The translations under genes and the position numbers were made by a program. Below the pieces are notes generated by a model. It did no database searches. It saw nothing but the letters and a program-made list of their open reading frames with translations, and was not told the origin of the DNA. DNA of 64,000 nt from Deltaproteobacteria bacterium (GTDB taxonomy: Bacteria > Desulfobacterota > Binatia > UBA1149 > JAJCZL01): the NCBI GenBank assembly GCA_029262415.1, contig JAJCZL010000007.1, positions 1 to 64,000 on the forward strand, written 5' to 3'. The number at the start of each line of letters is the position of its first letter. The stretch's first letter is position 1. Positions 52,295-61,053 of the stretch are shown here, piece after piece.

Positions 52295-53381
52295 GTGCCG
52301 TTAACTGATACCGCTATCCGTTCCGCGAAGCCGCGCCCGAAGACCTTCAAGCTGTTTGACGGAGGCGGCCTCTATCTGGAGGTCAACCCCGTCGGCGGCA
52401 AGTGGTGGCGTCTGAAGTATCGGTTCGGCGGCAAGGAGAAGCGGCTCTCGTTGGGCGTTTACCCCGACGTTCGATTGAAATCGGCTCGCGGTAAGCGTGA
52501 CTTAGCTCGCCAACAGATTGCGGCCGGTATCGACCCCGGACATGCTCGTCGTGCGGAAAAGCTTGCGCACGCAGGTGCCGACAGTTTCGAGGTCGTAGCA
52601 CGTGAGTGGCACGGAAAGTTCTCCGAGGGATGGTCGCCGAGTCACGGCGACCGTGTGTTGCGGCGGCTTGAGAAAGACCTGTTCCCCACGCGCGGAGCGC
52701 GATCCCACGGGCGATCTTCGCGGCGCTCTGCCCCCGCCGAAAGAAAGGCATCACGCGTCCATCATCGAGCCGAAAGGGATTGGTGAACTACTGCGGGCGA
52801 TAGATGCCTATCAAGGTTTCTTCGTTACGAAGTGCGCGCTGCGGCTAGCGCCGCTCGTTTTCGTTCGACCGGGAGAACTGCGAAAGGCGGAGTGGTCGGA
52901 GATCGACTTGGACAAAGCCGAGTGGCGCATCCCCGCCGAGCGGATGAAAATGCGAGAGCAGCACATCGTGCCGCTATCTCGCCAGGCCGTCGATGTACTT
53001 CGGGATATTGAGCCATTAACGAGCTGCGCGATACCCGCCAAACCGAACGCGCCGCGCTTTGTCTTTCCAGGTATGCGTTCGCGCGCGCGCCCCATGAGCG
53101 AAAACGCGGTGCTCGCGGCGCTCAGGCGCATGGGTTACGCGAAGGAAGAAATGACCGGCCACGGCTTCCGCAGTATGGCATCCACCCTGCTGCACGAACG
53201 AGGTTGGAACCATCAGGTGATCGAACGCCAGCTCGCCCATGCCGAACGCAACGCCGTGAGCGCGGCCTACAACTTCGCCGAGCATCTGCCCGAACGGCGT
53301 AAGATGATGCAGGCGTGGGCTGATTACCTGGACTTGCTGAAACGCGGTGCCGACGTGATCCCGCTGTTCAGGAAGGCGTAA
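52295..53381 (+). pseudogene. Tyrosine integrase, P4/DUF4102 type, inactivated by internal deletion and frameshift
   Basis: The first frame (52295 to about 52690) encodes the DUF4102 arm-binding domain (MPLTDTAIRSAKPR, DGGGLYLEV, RLSLGVYPDV) and the start of the core-binding domain, ending in LEKDLFP. The second frame (about 52690-53381) resumes at RAERDPTGDLRGALPP and runs through the catalytic domain: RPGELRKAEW (Arg I), HGFRSMAST (H-x-x-R) and a likely Tyr in AAYNFAEH. About 50 codons of the core-binding domain are missing at the junction, and the frame shifts. Integration downstream of ssrA is typical of this family. The enzyme is presumably inactive. Confidence 0.88.
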
Positions 53382-53502: not shown

Positions 53503-54183
53503 CTACCCTCTTCCCGCTTCAGCGCTGCATCCGCCACCGTTGAGTGCTTCTCGAGCTTCTTTGACGAGCCATGGCACCATCGCGAGTGCCGCCACCGGGT
53601 CGGCCCACCACAGGTCAGCCACTGCGTTCGCAGCGAGACCGAGAAGCAGCGTTAGCGAGAGGTAGGAGCACGCAAGTGTCTCCTTTGCTTCAGCGCGAAG
53701 CGCTGCGCTTCCGACCTCTTTAGCTGCTCGGAGCTTTCCCCAGGCGACAGCGGGCATGAGAAGAAGCGACAAAACAGCAAGCGCGATCCCAACCTGGCTC
53801 TCCTGCGGAGCGCTCTGCGTGTAGAGCGTCGCAAGTGCCTCGCCGCTTACATAGAGAGCAAGAGCTATAAAGGTAGCACCGACGAAGCGGTGGACGACGT
53901 GCTCTCTGGCGTCGACCACCTCGTCGTCCTCGCCCCGTGCTTCGGCCGCGAAGCGCCAGAGCAGCACGCCGGCCGCGGCGAACTCGATGACGCTGTCGAG
54001 CCCGAATCCAACGAGGACGCTGCTCTCTGCTGCAATCCCCGACCAGAGGGCCACTACCGCCTCGACGCAGTTGTAGGTCATCGTGGCTGCAACGAGCCAG
54101 AGAGCTATCTTGAGCCATTTCCGCCTATGAAGGTCGGTTCGGGGGCCGTGTTGGGACGCCATGCGAAGCGATGTTTCAGTCAT
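53503..54183 (-). CDS. Cation-diffusion-facilitator-type transporter (short form)
   Basis: 226 aa with about six TM helices and no long cytoplasmic C-domain. The motif VLVGFGLDSVIEFAAAGVLLWRF corresponds to TM2 of CDF proteins (the Asp is a metal ligand), and a second acidic site appears in ANAVADLWWADPVAAL. CDF proteins are usually near 300 aa, so the C-terminal regulatory domain is absent. It starts 3 bp after the ArsR gene, so both are in one operon. It probably exports Zn, Cd or Co ions from the cytoplasm, in line with the RND pump beyond. Confidence 0.85.
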   Translation of the reverse strand: MTETSLRMASQHGPRTDLHRRKWLKIALWLVAATMTYNCVEAVVALWSGIAAESSVLVGFGLDSVIEFAAAGVLLWRFAAEARGEDDEVVDAREHVVHRFVGATFIALALYVSGEALATLYTQSAPQESQVGIALAVLSLLLMPAVAWGKLRAAKEVGSAALRAEAKETLACSYLSLTLLLGLAANAVADLWWADPVAALAMVPWLVKEAREALNGGGCSAEAGRG

Positions 54184-54186
54184 CGC

Positions 54187-54522
54187 CTACCTCCTTCTTG
54201 TGGCGTGCGCGGCGTGTTCTCGAGCGACGGCGAAGAGTGCCTTCACGTGGTCGTCGTCGAGAGCGTAGTAGACGTGCCGGCCCGCCTTTCGGTGCCGAAC
54301 AAGCCCCTGGTTGCGAAGTGCCCGCAGCTGATGGGATACGGCAGACTGTTCCAACTCAAGTTCGACGCACAAGTCGTGCACGCATCGTTCGTTGTCGAAA
54401 ATCGCGGCTATGATGCGAACACGGGTCGGGTCAGAGAGCGCCTTGAAGGCATCTGCGATGGCGGATGCGCTGTGGTCGTCGAGCGGCCCAGGCCGGGTCT
54501 TGCGCCTTGCGGATGCGGACAT
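54187..54522 (-). CDS. ArsR/SmtB-family metal-responsive repressor
   Basis: 111 aa from the ATG at 54522. ATGs at 54543 and 54591 are in frame, but using them would place the operator inside the gene. The winged helix-turn-helix is clear: AFKALSDPTRVRIIAAIF, CVHDLCVELELEQSAVSHQLRALRNQGLVRHRKAGRHVYYAL. The CVHDLC stretch offers Cys and His near helix 3, and the C-terminal helix has DDDHVKALFAVAREHAAH, a possible alpha5 metal site. It probably represses the CDF gene and the divergent efflux genes until metal binds. Confidence 0.88.
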   Translation of the reverse strand: MSASARRKTRPGPLDDHSASAIADAFKALSDPTRVRIIAAIFDNERCVHDLCVELELEQSAVSHQLRALRNQGLVRHRKAGRHVYYALDDDHVKALFAVAREHAAHATRRR

Positions 54523-54557
54523 AACACATGAATACATGAGCATGTGTTCATGTGTTA
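54522..54557. promoter_or_regulatory. 36-bp palindromic operator of the ArsR-type repressor
   Basis: Arms AACACATGAATACATG and CATGTGTTCATGTGTT, extended by one T-A pair, flank a central AG with one mismatch. The core TGAATACATG-AG-CATGTGTTCA has the TGAA/TTCA spacing typical of SmtB/CzrA operators. It abuts the chosen start codon of the repressor and lies between it and the divergent efflux genes. Confidence 0.8.
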
Positions 54558-54660: not shown

Positions 54661-55050
54661 ATGAAACACCGAGCAGCAAGAACTACGATGGCGACCCTTA
54701 GCCTCCTCGCCTACGTGTGGGGTGGCCTCGGCGTCGGCTCGCAGTTCGTCTACTGCGTCGGTTCTGATGGGCATAGCGGCATCGAGCGGGCGCACGGCCC
54801 GTCGCATGATGCGGTGCCGCGCGAGGAGAATTCCGCGCTCAGCTCCAAGTCGTGCTTAGATGTCTCGCTCCTCGTTCCTGCTTCGAAGGAGCAGGAACGG
54901 CTCAGAGACCTGAGCCCAGCACTCCAGCACCTCGTTTCGACGGTTCTTTCGCATGTCTCCTTGGGAGACCCCCGTTTCACTCGCGGCGACAGCCCAGACG
55001 TTAACCGCGAGAAGACCATCTCTCTTCGCTCCACCGTTCTTCGCATCTAG
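54661..55050 (+). CDS. Small exported protein of the metal-efflux cluster
   Basis: 129 aa from the ATG at 54661. A signal-like hydrophobic segment (MATLSLLAYVWGGLGVGSQF) is followed by VYCVGSDGHSGIERAHG. That pattern of Cys, Asp, His and Glu recurs, from memory, in small proteins beside RND metal pumps. A second Cys comes later (SSKSCLD). The remainder is polar. Metal binding in the periplasm is plausible but not shown. It is the first gene divergent from the ArsR operator and precedes the CzcC-like gene by 115 bp. Confidence 0.6.
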   Translation: MKHRAARTTMATLSLLAYVWGGLGVGSQFVYCVGSDGHSGIERAHGPSHDAVPREENSALSSKSCLDVSLLVPASKEQERLRDLSPALQHLVSTVLSHVSLGDPRFTRGDSPDVNREKTISLRSTVLRI

Positions 55051-55165: not shown

Positions 55166-56551
55166 ATGAATAGACAAAAACGAAATATGACGGCGCTTGC
55201 TGTCTGCGCTCTTGCGCTGTCGGGCTGCGCTACCCAGCAAGACGCCGCGAACATGCCAGAGCCGAGGCCGCTTGGACGAGAGTTGAGTAGCGTCCAAGCG
55301 GCGGTCGAGAGACAAGCAAATTCGGAGGCTAGACCGCTCGAGTATCCTAGCGGTGTTATTGCGCTTCGGGACGCGCTCGCCCTGGCGCTGATGAACAATC
55401 CGCGACTGGCTGCCTTCTCTTGGGAGGTGCGGGTGCGCGAAGCGAACGTGCTTCAGGCGGGACTACTTCCTAACCCTGAAATCACCATCGAGTTAGAAAA
55501 TTTTGGCGGCTCGGAGGTGACGAGTGGTTTTGACGGCTCAGAAAACACACTTTGGCTTTCGCAGCTCATTGAACTTGGCGGCAAGCGCACCAAACGCCGC
55601 ACGGTGGCCGAGTTGGAGCGAGCTGTTGCCAGTTGGGACTACGAGGCGGCCAGAATAGACACATTTACCGAGGTCGCACTCGCTTTCACACAACTGCTTG
55701 CCGCTCAGGAACGAAAGGCTCTCTCGGAGGAACTTGTTGGGGTAACCGACCGAGCTTTGCGGGTCGTAGGCGATCAGGTGAAGGCCGGCGCTGTCTCGGC
55801 CGTGGAGAAAAACCGTGCTGAGGTGGCGCTCGCTACTAGCCGCGTTGAACTGGCCCGGCGGGTTCGTGAGCTCAACTCGGCAAGAAAGCTCCTTGCAGCC
55901 ACGTGGGGAAGCACGGAGGTCTCGTTTGCCGGAGTAGTAGGTGCTCTGGGCGAGGGAATCTCGCCGCCACCCTCTGAGGCTGCACTGCTTCGCCAGGTTG
56001 AAGAGAACCCAGACCTTGCCCGCTGGACGACTGAACTCTCAGCGCGCCGGGCACTAGTCGCACTCGAAGACTCAAAGCGTATCCCCGATGTGACGCTCGG
56101 CGGTGGTCCGCGCTGGTTTAACGAGACAAACCATAGTGCGTTTGTGTTTGAGCTAAGCGTTCCGCTACCGCTTTTTGATCGCAACCAGGGGGCGGCTCTT
56201 GAGGCTCGGAGGCGTCTAGCCAAGGCTTCCGAGGAGCGTCGTGCTGCCGAGGTCGACGTTAGAACAGCGCTAAGCACTGCCCACCAGTCGCTCGCAGCCA
56301 CGTACGAAGCAGTTGTTGCGCTTCAGCGCGATGTGCTCCCCAAAGCCCAGGCCGCGTTTGACGGAGCGACCTCTGCGTACCGACGCGGCGTGTTTCGCTA
56401 CCTAGATGTGTTGGATGCGCAGAGAACGCTCTTTGCGCTTCGAAGTGAGTACCTCGAAACGCTCGCGGCCCATCACGGCGATATCGCTCGTGTGGAGCGC
56501 CTTGTCGGCCGGCCGCTCGGAGAGTTTCGAGATGAAGATAGGAGATCCTGA
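55166..56551 (+). CDS. czcC: Outer-membrane efflux channel, TolC/CzcC family
   Basis: 461 aa from the ATG at 55166, with GGAG 10 bp upstream. The signal is of lipoprotein type (ALALSGC). Two OEP repeats follow: first from ALRDALALALMNNPRLAAFSWEVRVREANVLQAGLLPNPE, second from EAALLRQVEENPDLARW. Long amphipathic coiled-coil helices build the periplasmic tunnel. It is the outer-membrane part of the tripartite pump, and its stop lies 1 bp from the CzcB-like start. Confidence 0.9.
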   Translation: MNRQKRNMTALAVCALALSGCATQQDAANMPEPRPLGRELSSVQAAVERQANSEARPLEYPSGVIALRDALALALMNNPRLAAFSWEVRVREANVLQAGLLPNPEITIELENFGGSEVTSGFDGSENTLWLSQLIELGGKRTKRRTVAELERAVASWDYEAARIDTFTEVALAFTQLLAAQERKALSEELVGVTDRALRVVGDQVKAGAVSAVEKNRAEVALATSRVELARRVRELNSARKLLAATWGSTEVSFAGVVGALGEGISPPPSEAALLRQVEENPDLARWTTELSARRALVALEDSKRIPDVTLGGGPRWFNETNHSAFVFELSVPLPLFDRNQGAALEARRRLAKASEERRAAEVDVRTALSTAHQSLAATYEAVVALQRDVLPKAQAAFDGATSAYRRGVFRYLDVLDAQRTLFALRSEYLETLAAHHGDIARVERLVGRPLGEFRDEDRRS

Positions 56552-56552
56552 A

Positions 56553-57587
56553 ATGAAAGCATTCACAGAACATCTGCTCGTACGTGCAGTGTCGATACTA
56601 TTGATTACCGGCCTAGTGCTCTGGGGCGTTGCTCCCCACTCGGGCCTTTCGGTGGCGATAGCAGCAGACGAGCACGGACACGACGAGGCGCACGATGAAG
56701 ACTCTCATGATGAGGACGCCGCCGAGCACGAAGGCCATGGAAGCGATGAGGGAGAGCATCACGACGATGTCGTAAGGCTAAGCGCTTCTCAGATGCAGGA
56801 GTTCGGCATCGAGGTGGCTACAGCAGGAAGCGGTCAGATCACCACGTATGTCGTGCTTCCCGGAGAGGTCGTTCCTAATGCCGACCGCGTGGCGCACATC
56901 GTTCCTCGTTACGCCGGCATCGTAAGAGAGGTCCGAAAACGCATCGGAGACAAGGTGAAAACCGGTGACGTCCTTGCCGTTATCGAGAGTAGCGAAACAC
57001 TGACGGCATATGAGCTAAAAACACTTCTCGACGGTACGGTCATCGCCAAACACGTTACGCGCGGAGAGGCTGTCACTCGGGACTCGCAGGCGTTTGTCAT
57101 AGCCGACCTGCGCGATGTCTGGCTTGAGCTAAGCATCTACCAGCGCGACCTGTCCCGCGTGAAGGTTGGCCAGCGCGTGCTCATCTCGAGCGGTCATCAC
57201 CTGCCCGACGTAGAAGGAACGATCTCATACGTAAGCCCGGTGGTCGATGAGGACACACGCACTGCAAGGGCGCGCCTCGTCGTGGACAACGGCGCCGGTG
57301 CGTGGCGGCCGGGCATGTTCGTCACCGGTCGCGTTGCGGTTACGGCGGCGAATGTGCCGGTCGCCGTCCCGCATTCAGCGCTTCAGACCGTGGAAGGACA
57401 CACGCTTGTCTTCGTACAAGATGAAGATGGCTTTGAGCCGCGCGAACTAAGACTTGGACGTAGCAGCACGACCCATGTCGAGGTCTTGTCGGGCCTCTCG
57501 GCAGGTGAGTCGTACGTCGCCAAGGGCGGCTTCATCATAAAAGCCGAGCTTGGAAAGTCCGAGCTTAGCGAAGGCCACTCGCACTAA
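56553..57587 (+). CDS. czcB: RND efflux membrane-fusion protein, CzcB type, His/Asp-rich
   Basis: 344 aa from the ATG at 56553, with GGAG 8 bp upstream. After a TM/signal segment the mature N-terminus (about residues 34-68) is packed with His, Asp and Glu (DEHGHDEAHDEDSH), a likely metal-scavenging tail. A barrel-sandwich (lipoyl-like) domain follows (GIVREVRKRIGDKVKTGDVLAVIES) with almost no helical hairpin, then beta-barrel and membrane-proximal domains. The protein ends in EGHSH. It connects the inner-membrane pump to the outer channel and may hand metal to the pump. Confidence 0.9.
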   Translation: MKAFTEHLLVRAVSILLITGLVLWGVAPHSGLSVAIAADEHGHDEAHDEDSHDEDAAEHEGHGSDEGEHHDDVVRLSASQMQEFGIEVATAGSGQITTYVVLPGEVVPNADRVAHIVPRYAGIVREVRKRIGDKVKTGDVLAVIESSETLTAYELKTLLDGTVIAKHVTRGEAVTRDSQAFVIADLRDVWLELSIYQRDLSRVKVGQRVLISSGHHLPDVEGTISYVSPVVDEDTRTARARLVVDNGAGAWRPGMFVTGRVAVTAANVPVAVPHSALQTVEGHTLVFVQDEDGFEPRELRLGRSSTTHVEVLSGLSAGESYVAKGGFIIKAELGKSELSEGHSH

Positions 57588-57602
57588 TCGGAGGTTAAGA
57601 CG

Positions 57603-60600
57603 ATGGATTTTCTTATTCGCTTTGGCCTTCGAAACCGCCTCTTGGTGGTCGCGTTTGGCGTTCTAGTCAGTCTTGCCGGGTTCCGGGCGTACCTCGATCT
57701 TCCTGTCGATGCGTTCCCAGATGTCTCGCCAAACCTCGTACAGGTTTTCACAGAGACCGAGGGCTTGGCCCCCGAGGATGTAGAAAAGTACGTCACCTAC
57801 CCGATCGAAGCCGCAATGAACGGACTGCCGCGCCTTGAGCGGCTCCGATCGGTATCGAATTTCGGACTTTCGGTCGTAAACATCTACTTCGAAGACGGGA
57901 CCGATATCTATTTCGCCCGTCAAGTCGTGGGCGAGCGTCTCCAAGAAGCTCGTGAACAGATCCCGGAAGGTTTCGGCGACCCAGCGCTAGGACCGATCTC
58001 TACCGGTATGGGGCTGGTGCTCTTTTACTACCTTGAGGACGAGACCGGCGAGTATTCACTCGAGGAGCTTCGCAGCATCCAAGACTGGCTTGTGAAGTTC
58101 CACCTTCAGACCGTCCCTGGCGTAACTGAGGTTCTGGGAATAGGAGGCTACGAAAAGCAGTATCAGGTCAATGTCCATCCTGAACATCTGACCCAGTACG
58201 GGATCACGATCGGTGACGTAATCGATCGCATCCGCGAGAACAACCTGAACGTCGGTGCCCAGTTCATCGAGAAGAACTCCGAAGAGTACATCGTGCGCTC
58301 GGTGGGATTGGCCTCAAGCGTCGAGGATCTCGAAAACATCGTCGTTAAATCTAAAGACGGCACTCCAGTATTCCTACGCGACCTAGCTGACATCGAGCTT
58401 GGCGGGGCCATTCGCCGCGGCGTGCAGACAAGAAACGGGATCGAAGAAGTCGTTTCCGCAATGGTTGTAAAGCTCTACGGCACAAACTCCTCGACCGTCA
58501 TCGGACAGGTCGAAGACAAGATGACCGAGATCAATCAAATCTTGCCCGAAGGGGTCAAGATCATCCCGTACTACGAGCAAAAGACGTTGGTCGCGGCGTG
58601 TGTTGCAACGGTCAGGAACGCATTGGTTCAGGGCATCGTGTTGGTGGCGCTGGTGCTGATGGCGTTCATGGGAGGTCTTCGAGCGAGTATCGTCGTTGCC
58701 CTCTCGATTCCCTTCTCGGTTCTGTTTGCGACGCTGGGGATGGGCTACTTTGGTATCTCTGCGAACCTGATGTCGCTTGGAGGACTGGCAATCGCCATCG
58801 GCATGATGGTCGACGGCACAATCGTTGTCGTAGAGAACGTCGAACGGATGCTGGGTGAGGCCGACCCTGACGAGTCACGCGTCGCCGTAGTCTCGCGTGC
58901 CTGCATGGAGGTCGGAAGACCCATCGTCTTTGCGATCTCGATTATCGTGATCGTGTTCCTCCCCCTGTTCACGCTTCAGGGCGTTGAGGGCAAGACCTTC
59001 CGCCCGCTCGCTTACACCGTAGCGCTTGCGATGATGGGATCGCTGGCATTCGCCATCCTCATCGCACCGGCACTATCTGATCTACTGATGCGCCGGCCCA
59101 AAGGTGGGAGTTCAGGGGGCCGAGGGATGCGCGCGCTGGTGGCGCTGTATCGGCCGGCCGTGTCGTTTTTTGTAAGACGTCGCGCGTTCGCCCTTGTGCT
59201 CGCCGGTGGCTTACTCGTGCTAGGAGTAATCGTCTTTCCCCGCCTGGGGTCTGAGTTCACGCCGCGACTTCAAGAAGGAACCATGGTGCTTCGGCTTACG
59301 ATGCCTCCGTCGATATCGCTTACCAAGAGCACCGACTTGACGATGATCGTCGAGCGTCGCCTCATGAAGATACCTGAGATTAGCGGAGTCGTGACGCGGA
59401 TCGGTCGAGGCGAGGTCGGCGCACATACTGACCCCGTAAACAGCGCCGAGATGTACATTCTCTTGCACCCTCAAGAGCAGTGGCGAAGTGCCACGACTCA
59501 GACGGAGCTTGAAGATCAGATCCGCGATGACCTAGGTGCCGTGCCCGGCGTTGCCACCAACTTCACCCAACCCATTGCGATGACGGTTGACGAGTTACTT
59601 GAGGGCGTTCGGGCGGAGCTCGCCATCAAGCTCTTTGGGGATGACCTGGATGAACTCATCGAAAAGGCCAACGAGATCTCGCGCGTGGTGCAGACAGTCC
59701 CTGGAGCAGTAGACATCCAGGTCGACCAAGTCGCCGGCACGCCGCAGCTTATCATCACCGTGGACCGCCAGGCTGTCGCCCGCTACGGAATGAACGTAGC
59801 CGACGTCCAAAAGACGATCCGAACCGCGGTCGGTGGTGAAGTCTCCGGTCAGATATTCGAAGGTATCCGTCGCTTCGGCATCTACGTGCGCTTTGCCGCG
59901 CCGTATCGCGGCACCGCTGAGTCGATTGGAAACATCCTGGTTGAGGGCCCCGGACAAGTAAGAGTGCCGCTGTCGGAGCTTGCCGAGATTGAGGAGGTCG
60001 TCGGTCCACGCCAAATCACGCGAGAGGACAACCAGCGCTTCATTACGATCCAGTGCAACGTGGTAGGCCGCGACATCGGCTCGTTTGTGGCCGATGCTCA
60101 GTCAGCGATCGACGAGGCCATAGTGTTCCCTGCAGGCTATCTGGTCACTTGGGGCGGTCAGTTTCGGCTGCAACAGGAGGCCAATCGTCGACTCGCTGTA
60201 GTCGTACCGATTACGCTCCTGATCGTCTTTTTCCTGTTGTTCATGAGTTTCGGTTCCATTGGGAACTCGATCCTCATCATTGCAAACATCCCACTCGCGC
60301 TCGTTGGTGGGGTCGTCGCTCTTTGGGCCACAGGGCAGAACCTGTCGGTTCCATCATCGGTCGGGTTCATCGCTCTTTTTGGCATCGCGCTCGAGAACGG
60401 AATGGTGCTGGTTACCTACTTCAATCAACTCGTGCAGGACGGTGTTGCTGTTGACGACGCCTCGGTTAGAGGAGCAACTCTTCGGCTTCGACCGGTGCTC
60501 ATGACCGCAATCACGACTGCGCTCGGATTGTTCCCGCTGCTGTTCTCCTCGGGTACGGGAAGCGAGGTGCAGCGGCCACTGGCAACTGTAGTTGTCGGCG

Positions 60601-60710
60601 GGCTGGTTACCTCGACTGTTCTGACGCTTCTCGTGATTCCGGCCCTGTATAGGTGGTTTGCCGTAATTCCGGACGGCGAGGCACAGAATTCTTTACGTGA
60701 AGGAGGATAA
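57603..60710 (+). CDS. czcA: Heavy-metal efflux RND pump (CzcA/CusA family)
   Basis: 1035 aa, the usual length. Twelve TM helices and two large periplasmic loops are laid out as in HME-RND pumps (start FLIRFGLRNRLLVV; DVSPNLVQVFTE; VEKYVTYPIEAAMNG). In TM4 the motif reads AIGMMVDGTIVVVEN (residues 398-412). Asp404 and Glu411 are kept, but the first Asp of the divalent-type DFG-VDG motif is Ala398. Copper-type Met pairs of CusA are also not seen at the expected places (VDELLEG where CusA has a Met). Substrate class is therefore uncertain. Downstream is a PII-like gene. Confidence 0.92.
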   Translation: MDFLIRFGLRNRLLVVAFGVLVSLAGFRAYLDLPVDAFPDVSPNLVQVFTETEGLAPEDVEKYVTYPIEAAMNGLPRLERLRSVSNFGLSVVNIYFEDGTDIYFARQVVGERLQEAREQIPEGFGDPALGPISTGMGLVLFYYLEDETGEYSLEELRSIQDWLVKFHLQTVPGVTEVLGIGGYEKQYQVNVHPEHLTQYGITIGDVIDRIRENNLNVGAQFIEKNSEEYIVRSVGLASSVEDLENIVVKSKDGTPVFLRDLADIELGGAIRRGVQTRNGIEEVVSAMVVKLYGTNSSTVIGQVEDKMTEINQILPEGVKIIPYYEQKTLVAACVATVRNALVQGIVLVALVLMAFMGGLRASIVVALSIPFSVLFATLGMGYFGISANLMSLGGLAIAIGMMVDGTIVVVENVERMLGEADPDESRVAVVSRACMEVGRPIVFAISIIVIVFLPLFTLQGVEGKTFRPLAYTVALAMMGSLAFAILIAPALSDLLMRRPKGGSSGGRGMRALVALYRPAVSFFVRRRAFALVLAGGLLVLGVIVFPRLGSEFTPRLQEGTMVLRLTMPPSISLTKSTDLTMIVERRLMKIPEISGVVTRIGRGEVGAHTDPVNSAEMYILLHPQEQWRSATTQTELEDQIRDDLGAVPGVATNFTQPIAMTVDELLEGVRAELAIKLFGDDLDELIEKANEISRVVQTVPGAVDIQVDQVAGTPQLIITVDRQAVARYGMNVADVQKTIRTAVGGEVSGQIFEGIRRFGIYVRFAAPYRGTAESIGNILVEGPGQVRVPLSELAEIEEVVGPRQITREDNQRFITIQCNVVGRDIGSFVADAQSAIDEAIVFPAGYLVTWGGQFRLQQEANRRLAVVVPITLLIVFFLLFMSFGSIGNSILIIANIPLALVGGVVALWATGQNLSVPSSVGFIALFGIALENGMVLVTYFNQLVQDGVAVDDASVRGATLRLRPVLMTAITTALGLFPLLFSSGTGSEVQRPLATVVVGGLVTSTVLTLLVIPALYRWFAVIPDGEAQNSLREGG

Positions 60711-60714
60711 GACA

Positions 60715-61053
60715 ATGAAACAAGTACGAGCATACATTCAGCCACATAAGCTCGACGCCGTGAAACTTGCTCTTCACAAGGTGAGCGGCCTGAGTGGAAT
60801 GAGCGTGAACGACACCCAGGGGTGGGGCCGTGGCACAAGCCACAAGGAGGCTGACCCCCACGCGGAGCCCTCGGGGCTCGAGCGACACGTGAAGGTCGAG
60901 GTGTTCTGCGTCGATCTTCTCCTGGATGAGGTGGTCGCCACCATCGAGAAGGCTGCTCATACAGGGCTTCATGGGGACGGCAAGATATATGTCATTCCCG
61001 TCGAAGAAGCCGTGCGTATCAGCAGCGGCGAACGGGGCGATGCTGCCGTGTAG
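60715..61053 (+). CDS. PII-like protein of the metal-efflux-associated group (PII-NG)
   Basis: 112 aa from the ATG at 60715, preceded by AGGAGG. The PII fold is clear: MKQVRAYIQPHKLDAVKLAL, GMSVNDTQGWGRGTSH, B-loop TGLHGDGKIYVIPVEEAVRI and the C-terminal SGERGDAAV. The T-loop is shorter and lacks the uridylylated Tyr51. From memory, a distinct PII group is encoded next to heavy-metal RND pumps, and this gene follows czcA by 4 bp. It may sense nucleotide or metal and gate the pump; untested here. Confidence 0.85.
   Translation: MKQVRAYIQPHKLDAVKLALHKVSGLSGMSVNDTQGWGRGTSHKEADPHAEPSGLERHVKVEVFCVDLLLDEVVATIEKAAHTGLHGDGKIYVIPVEEAVRISSGERGDAAV

Follow-up and report, generated by a model that had tools for sequence, protein, structure and literature searches.

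A PII group linked to metal RND operons, PII-NG, was described in 2009 (Sant'Anna 2009, as cited in PMC7726332 and PMC4285133), and the association of PII-NG with metal pumps is repeated in a review (PMC4285133). In Geobacter sulfurreducens, a C-B-A-PII gene set (GSU2134-2137) is induced by cobalt, with log2 fold changes of 2.93 for PII-NG and 2.47 for czcA; the set is also induced by iron limitation, and a metal-sensing role has been suggested (PMC7726332). As in the locus described here, the C, B, A and PII genes of G. sulfurreducens lie side by side, and the PII protein falls on a branch that is apart from GlnB/GlnK and tied to metal transport. Likewise, plasmid pHL2708Z5 of Marinobacter salarius has the TolC-adaptor-RND-PII order, a gene annotated as a P-II family regulator lying 17 bp downstream of a pump whose TM4 lacks the DFG Asp; it differs from our locus in that the pumps are 47% identical and its PII is very divergent. 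A further precedent is GlnK, whose T-loop plugs AmtB (PMC4285133). There, too, a PII trimer is encoded beside a trimeric membrane transporter; however, AmtB belongs to another transporter family, and an interaction has been shown for GlnK-AmtB only. A literature search, with most subscription journals outside its coverage, found no paper testing PII-NG binding or function. The pairing with a pump is the hallmark of the PII-NG group; it is widespread, has been known since 2009 and is not new to this locus.

A divergent metal-resistance locus

The window (the whole 64,000-nucleotide stretch of DNA that was analysed) holds a divergent metal-resistance locus. Genes for an ArsR-type repressor and a short CDF-type transporter run leftward, and the rightward gene order is small exported protein, outer-membrane factor, adaptor, HME-RND pump and PII. 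The CDF-type cation transporter (53503..54183, minus strand; 226 aa), whose gene points away from the operon across the promoter region, matches PF01545 with 46 bits and TIGR01297 with 49 bits, the latter below the cut-off of 82. At the positions of the DxxxD and HxxxD metal ligands of FieF/YiiP, it seemingly carries DSVIE and AKETLAC. Integrase-like ORFs in two frames, apparently split, adjoin the metal locus at 52295-53381 on the plus strand, which hints at an island or a mobile element in decay.

The ORF that forms the operon's first gene (54661..55050, plus strand) encodes a small exported protein for which no family match was found. It is kept at the same place in two genomes of the same order (77% in locus L158 and 34% in L159), and it carries a QFVYCVGSDGHSGIE motif; a similar motif occurs upstream of the pumps in L158, L159 and L173. 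The outer-membrane factor of the CzcC/TolC type (55166..56551, plus strand; PF02321, 138 bits) starts at 55166 with a lipoprotein-like start and is followed by a periplasmic adaptor of the CzcB type (56553..57587, plus strand; PF16576, 118 bits). By NCBIfam equivalog scores the system falls outside IhpABC, with 243 bits against a cut-off of 650 for IhpA and 318 against 450 for the IhpB-like adaptor. A previous reading of the window, made from sequence only, had given the adaptor a His/Asp-rich tail. A His/Asp/Glu-rich stretch does exist, but it is N-terminal (residues 39-72; 56667..56768, plus strand), directly after the signal peptide, and the C-terminus merely ends GHSH. Comparable stretches are present in the adaptors of several related operons.

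The ArsR/SmtB-family metal sensor (54187..54522, minus strand; NF033788, 96 bits) has SmtB as its best solved relative (E=1.2e-21), with NmtR and CzrA next. Aligned with these three proteins, it shows the ArsR fold with the alpha-5 DxH...H..H/E site of the SmtB/CzrA/NmtR group, here in the form DxH-x10-H-x2-H, plus CVHDLC. As listed, its ORF is a longer form that reads through a 17-2-17 inverted repeat, TAACACATGAATACATG-AG-CATGTGTTCATGTGTTA (54522..54557), whose arms are 94% complementary, so that the true start probably lies at 54522. The palindrome, a candidate SmtB-type operator, would then fall in the promoter region. Judged by its family, an SmtB-like regulator points to Zn, Co, Ni or Cd rather than copper. 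The operator repeat was not found in genome G002 (L044/L158, same order), whose ArsR gene is broken by an internal deletion that removes its middle. In that genome, a duplicated piece from the 3' end of a different pump lies behind the pump that is 95% identical to ours; with the shortened ArsR gene, these are signs of recombination around the operon.

The TM4 motif and the clade of the pump

The pump (57603..60710, plus strand; 1035 aa) is an HME-RND protein of the CzcA/CusA type, with a TIGR00914 score of 1110 bits against the curated cut-off of 701 and a matching placement in trees. Its TM4 motif is A-I-A398-I-G-M-M-V-D404-G-T-I-V-V-V-E411-N (58788..58838, plus strand), and in the alignment the DFG place holds DFG in CzcA and AVG in CusA. 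The sequence-only reading had reported an altered motif in which Ala398 replaces the DFG Asp while Asp404 and Glu411 are kept. The residues are borne out by the alignment, but the change is not an odd one: Ala398, Asp404, Glu411 and Asn412 are present in all 43 of the clade pumps that we collected (57-95% identity). Ala398 is a trait of the clade and not a peculiarity of the window pump.

In trees, this clade branches apart from CzcA, CnrA, ZneA and CusA/SilA. CzcA (HME1), CnrA (HME2) and ZneA (HME3a) resemble the window pump in belonging to TIGR00914, in having acidic rather than Met cleft residues and in being encoded in three-gene operons, but they carry DFG, whereas the window clade does not and branches separately. 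The TM4 signature of HME1 and HME2 is DFG-DGA-VEN (PMC3637150); the window pump reads AIG-DGT-VEN, and CzcA and CnrA lie on another branch. A comparison with the HME-RND classes had been proposed earlier as a check, and it sets the clade apart from the HME1, HME2, HME3a and HME4 references; placement in a known class with an established substrate, the result that was said to count against the earlier reading, was not found. The cyanobacterial CopA of PCC 6803 (HME5) is in the tree half that holds the window clade, but its branch is very long. For HME3b, a class recognised by clustering with HmyA-type pumps, the CH34 loci yielded no labelled HmyA sequence. Almost identical pump operons were observed on Sulfitobacter and Thalassobaculum plasmids (L101 and L102), near Tn3-family transposases, which indicates that the pump clade moves between genera.

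PII-NG residues and linkage to RND pumps

The ATG of the PII gene (60715..61053, plus strand; 112 aa) lies at 60715, 4 bp past the pump stop codon (60708-60710), and its AAGGAGG ribosome-binding site lies within the pump's last codons (60700..60706, plus strand). The protein matches PF00543 over its full length with 61 bits against a gathering score of 25, and 41 PDB matches, which are GlnB/GlnK-type proteins, make its PII fold clear. The genome has two PII proteins, the other being a canonical GlnB on contig 46. In a tree of only 112 columns, where the window row is long and its exact neighbour unsure, the 17 pump-linked rows group together with a support of 96/96 and the GlnB-like rows stand apart with 99/95. 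The window protein belongs to the PII-NG branch by this tree and by its residues, and its gene has the PII-NG type of operon link, directly downstream of a Czc-type RND pump.

In GlnB and GlnK, residues Gln39, Tyr51, Lys58 and Arg103 and the GDGK loop serve 2-oxoglutarate and Mg binding, nucleotide binding and uridylylation. The four single residues are invariant in all 37 GlnB-like proteins compared. The window PII has none of them: Gln39 is replaced by Gly, Tyr51 is lost, Lys58 is replaced by His and Arg103 by Ser, while GDGK, Arg101, Gly35 and Gly37 are kept. Thus, the absence of Tyr51 and the 4 bp spacing, both of which had been noticed from the sequence alone, are confirmed. Among 33 other pump-linked PII proteins, Gly39 occurs in 26, Ser103 in 25 and Tyr51 in none. 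Given the roles of these residues in GlnB/GlnK, the residue table predicts that PII-NG binds nucleotide and not 2-oxoglutarate. Binding of 2-oxoglutarate and Mg is expected to be lost and that of nucleotide may persist; judged by these residues, uridylylation of the window PII is impossible; lost 2-oxoglutarate residues together with a kept GDGK loop fit a nucleotide-only PII. Compared with the rest of the PII-NG group, including that of GSU2134-2137, the window PII has an atypical, His-containing T-loop (GTSHKEADPHAEPS) and sits on a long branch, so that it may have drifted.

We searched 395 genomes of the phylum with a profile made from 15 PII sequences, of which 14 are pump-linked. Among the loci opened from this search, 17 of 18 of the PII-NG type lie beside an RND pump, compared with 0 of 11 of the GlnB type; as pump-linked rows made up most of the profile, its own members are among the 17, and the independent loci are L131, L132, L135, L136 and L142. 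The sole PII-NG-type locus without a pump alongside sits at a contig end (L148/L177). When the searches were started from the pump, 22 of the 41 clade members that could be scored had PII downstream. The paired genes share a strand, their gaps run mostly from -4 to about +35 bp, and AAGGAGG-type Shine-Dalgarno sites of the PII genes lie within the end of the pump gene or between the two genes. A search of genome contigs with the PII protein yielded one locus (L042), and the same search of plasmids returned mostly GlnB genes. The PII gene located 22 kb from the G002 pump was considered as a PII-NG and rejected; its T-loop, with Q39 and Y51, is that of a nitrogen PII. Some pumps with DFG motifs (L057, L098) are followed by PII-NG as well, which is therefore not restricted to a single TM4 class. 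The adjacency of pump and PII exceeds chance. Because this adjacency is recurrent, on the same strand and with short gaps, and because the Shine-Dalgarno site lies in the pump's last codons, a functional link between the pump and PII-NG is well supported by gene arrangement. The window locus is a real, well-formed member of a known partnership.

The nearest relatives of the window pump, at 95% (G002), 85% (three genomes) and 72% (G030), have no PII gene within 1.1-1.5 kb downstream, a second point on which this locus differs from the PII-NG group that includes GSU2134-2137. On the pump tree, the presence of PII changes at least 8 times, with at least 5 of these changes forced by well-supported branches, and the pump persists without PII-NG in many lineages. 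Given these gains and losses, the nearest pumps without a linked PII and the incomplete presence across the clade, PII-NG is, to judge by its distribution, an accessory to the pump, and regulation by PII is not essential. With only 7 independent pairs on well-supported branches, no column of the pump alignment varied significantly with the presence of PII. The most striking differences between PII-plus and PII-minus pumps are Pro949 and Cys959, in the cytoplasmic loop between TM10 and TM11, and a C-terminal VEKE; the window pump has Ala949 and Thr959, as in PII-minus pumps. Position 949 was set aside as a contact signal: in the test by independent pairs, which were too few to reach significance, no column passed, the strongest included. 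The C-terminal VEKE was rejected, since it is the PII gene's AAGGAGG ribosome-binding site in translation.

Proposed mechanism and alternatives

We propose, with confidence evenly balanced for and against the reading as a whole, that the locus is a metal-induced tripartite efflux operon for a divalent cation of the Zn/Co/Cd/Ni kind in which PII-NG modulates the pump. Metal in the cytoplasm would release the ArsR protein and the operon would be expressed; its products would expel the cation, with Asp404 of the pump serving proton coupling. The PII-NG gene is placed for co-translation with the pump, and the PII-NG trimer may bind adenine nucleotide without 2-oxoglutarate and, through its T-loop, adjust the trimeric pump to the energy state of the cell, much as GlnK acts on AmtB. 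PII-NG would be a modulator, dispensable for the pump. By this analogy, gating of the pump by PII-NG, which the sequence-only reading had suggested, is plausible, although many close pumps have no PII gene and no pump residue varied significantly with PII. The more specific proposal, that trimers of PII-NG dock onto the cytoplasmic side of metal RND pump trimers, opening or closing them according to ATP/ADP in the style of GlnK-AmtB, is a tentative one that we hold as possible rather than probable.

Alternatively, PII-NG may have another target, such as a transcription factor or central metabolism, and be co-expressed with the pump only as a report of metal stress. The frequent loss and gain of the gene in pump lineages would agree with such a role, as would the finding that no pump residue significantly tracks PII presence. 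However, PII-NG is linked almost exclusively to RND pumps, and this on several separate branches of the pump tree, which speaks for the pump as its target, and we regard action elsewhere as doubtful. PII-NG could also serve to sense or buffer metal in the cytoplasm instead of gating the pump, binding the efflux substrate and signalling or handing over the metal, as has been proposed for GSU2134 by analogy with CutA1 (PMC7726332). The window T-loop region contains H43, H49 and H58, and His is found at GlnB position 82 in 23 of 33 PII-NG proteins, compared with 2 of 38 PII proteins without an adjoining pump. Nevertheless, the T-loop histidines are not conserved in PII-NG, some members having almost none; what is conserved are the nucleotide-loop residues, and the company of several TM4 pump classes implies no single metal. 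Thus, a sensor or buffer role seems unlikely, and modulation of the pump by PII-NG is the reading that we prefer.

With regard to the cargo, CusA and SilA (HME4) resemble the window pump in lacking the DFG Asp, in keeping Asp405 and EN and in having some TM methionines. The methionine residues of CusA were taken from PMC8092243 for comparison, and in the alignment its triad M573/M623/M672 corresponds to R564/S614/E664 of the window pump, which therefore lacks the Met triad of HME4; R564, E616 and E664 are invariant across all 43 clade pumps. Equivalents of CusA M271, M410, M501, M755, M1009 and Lys984 are also absent from the window pump, whereas its M390, M402 and M477 align with CusA M391, M403 and M486. 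The earlier statement that CusA Met positions are not evident thus holds for the periplasmic triad and several others, but not for these three. A CusA-like Cu(I)/Ag(I) exporter would share the retained methionines and the A-x-G...D...EN of TM4, but the missing triad, on which we rejected Cu/Ag export, the other missing equivalents, the distant branch of CusA/SilA and the SmtB-like regulator make it highly improbable. An acidic cleft without the Met triad fits a divalent ion. A divalent metal is the most likely cargo, given the lack of the triad and the SmtB-like repressor gene that, with its 17-2-17 palindrome, faces the operon.

Pumps with and without a PII gene constitute ready natural comparisons, and the residue table gives a clear prediction for PII-NG, namely that it should bind nucleotide and not 2-oxoglutarate. 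If the docking proposal is true, PII-NG would gate an RND efflux pump as a soluble protein from the cytoplasmic side.
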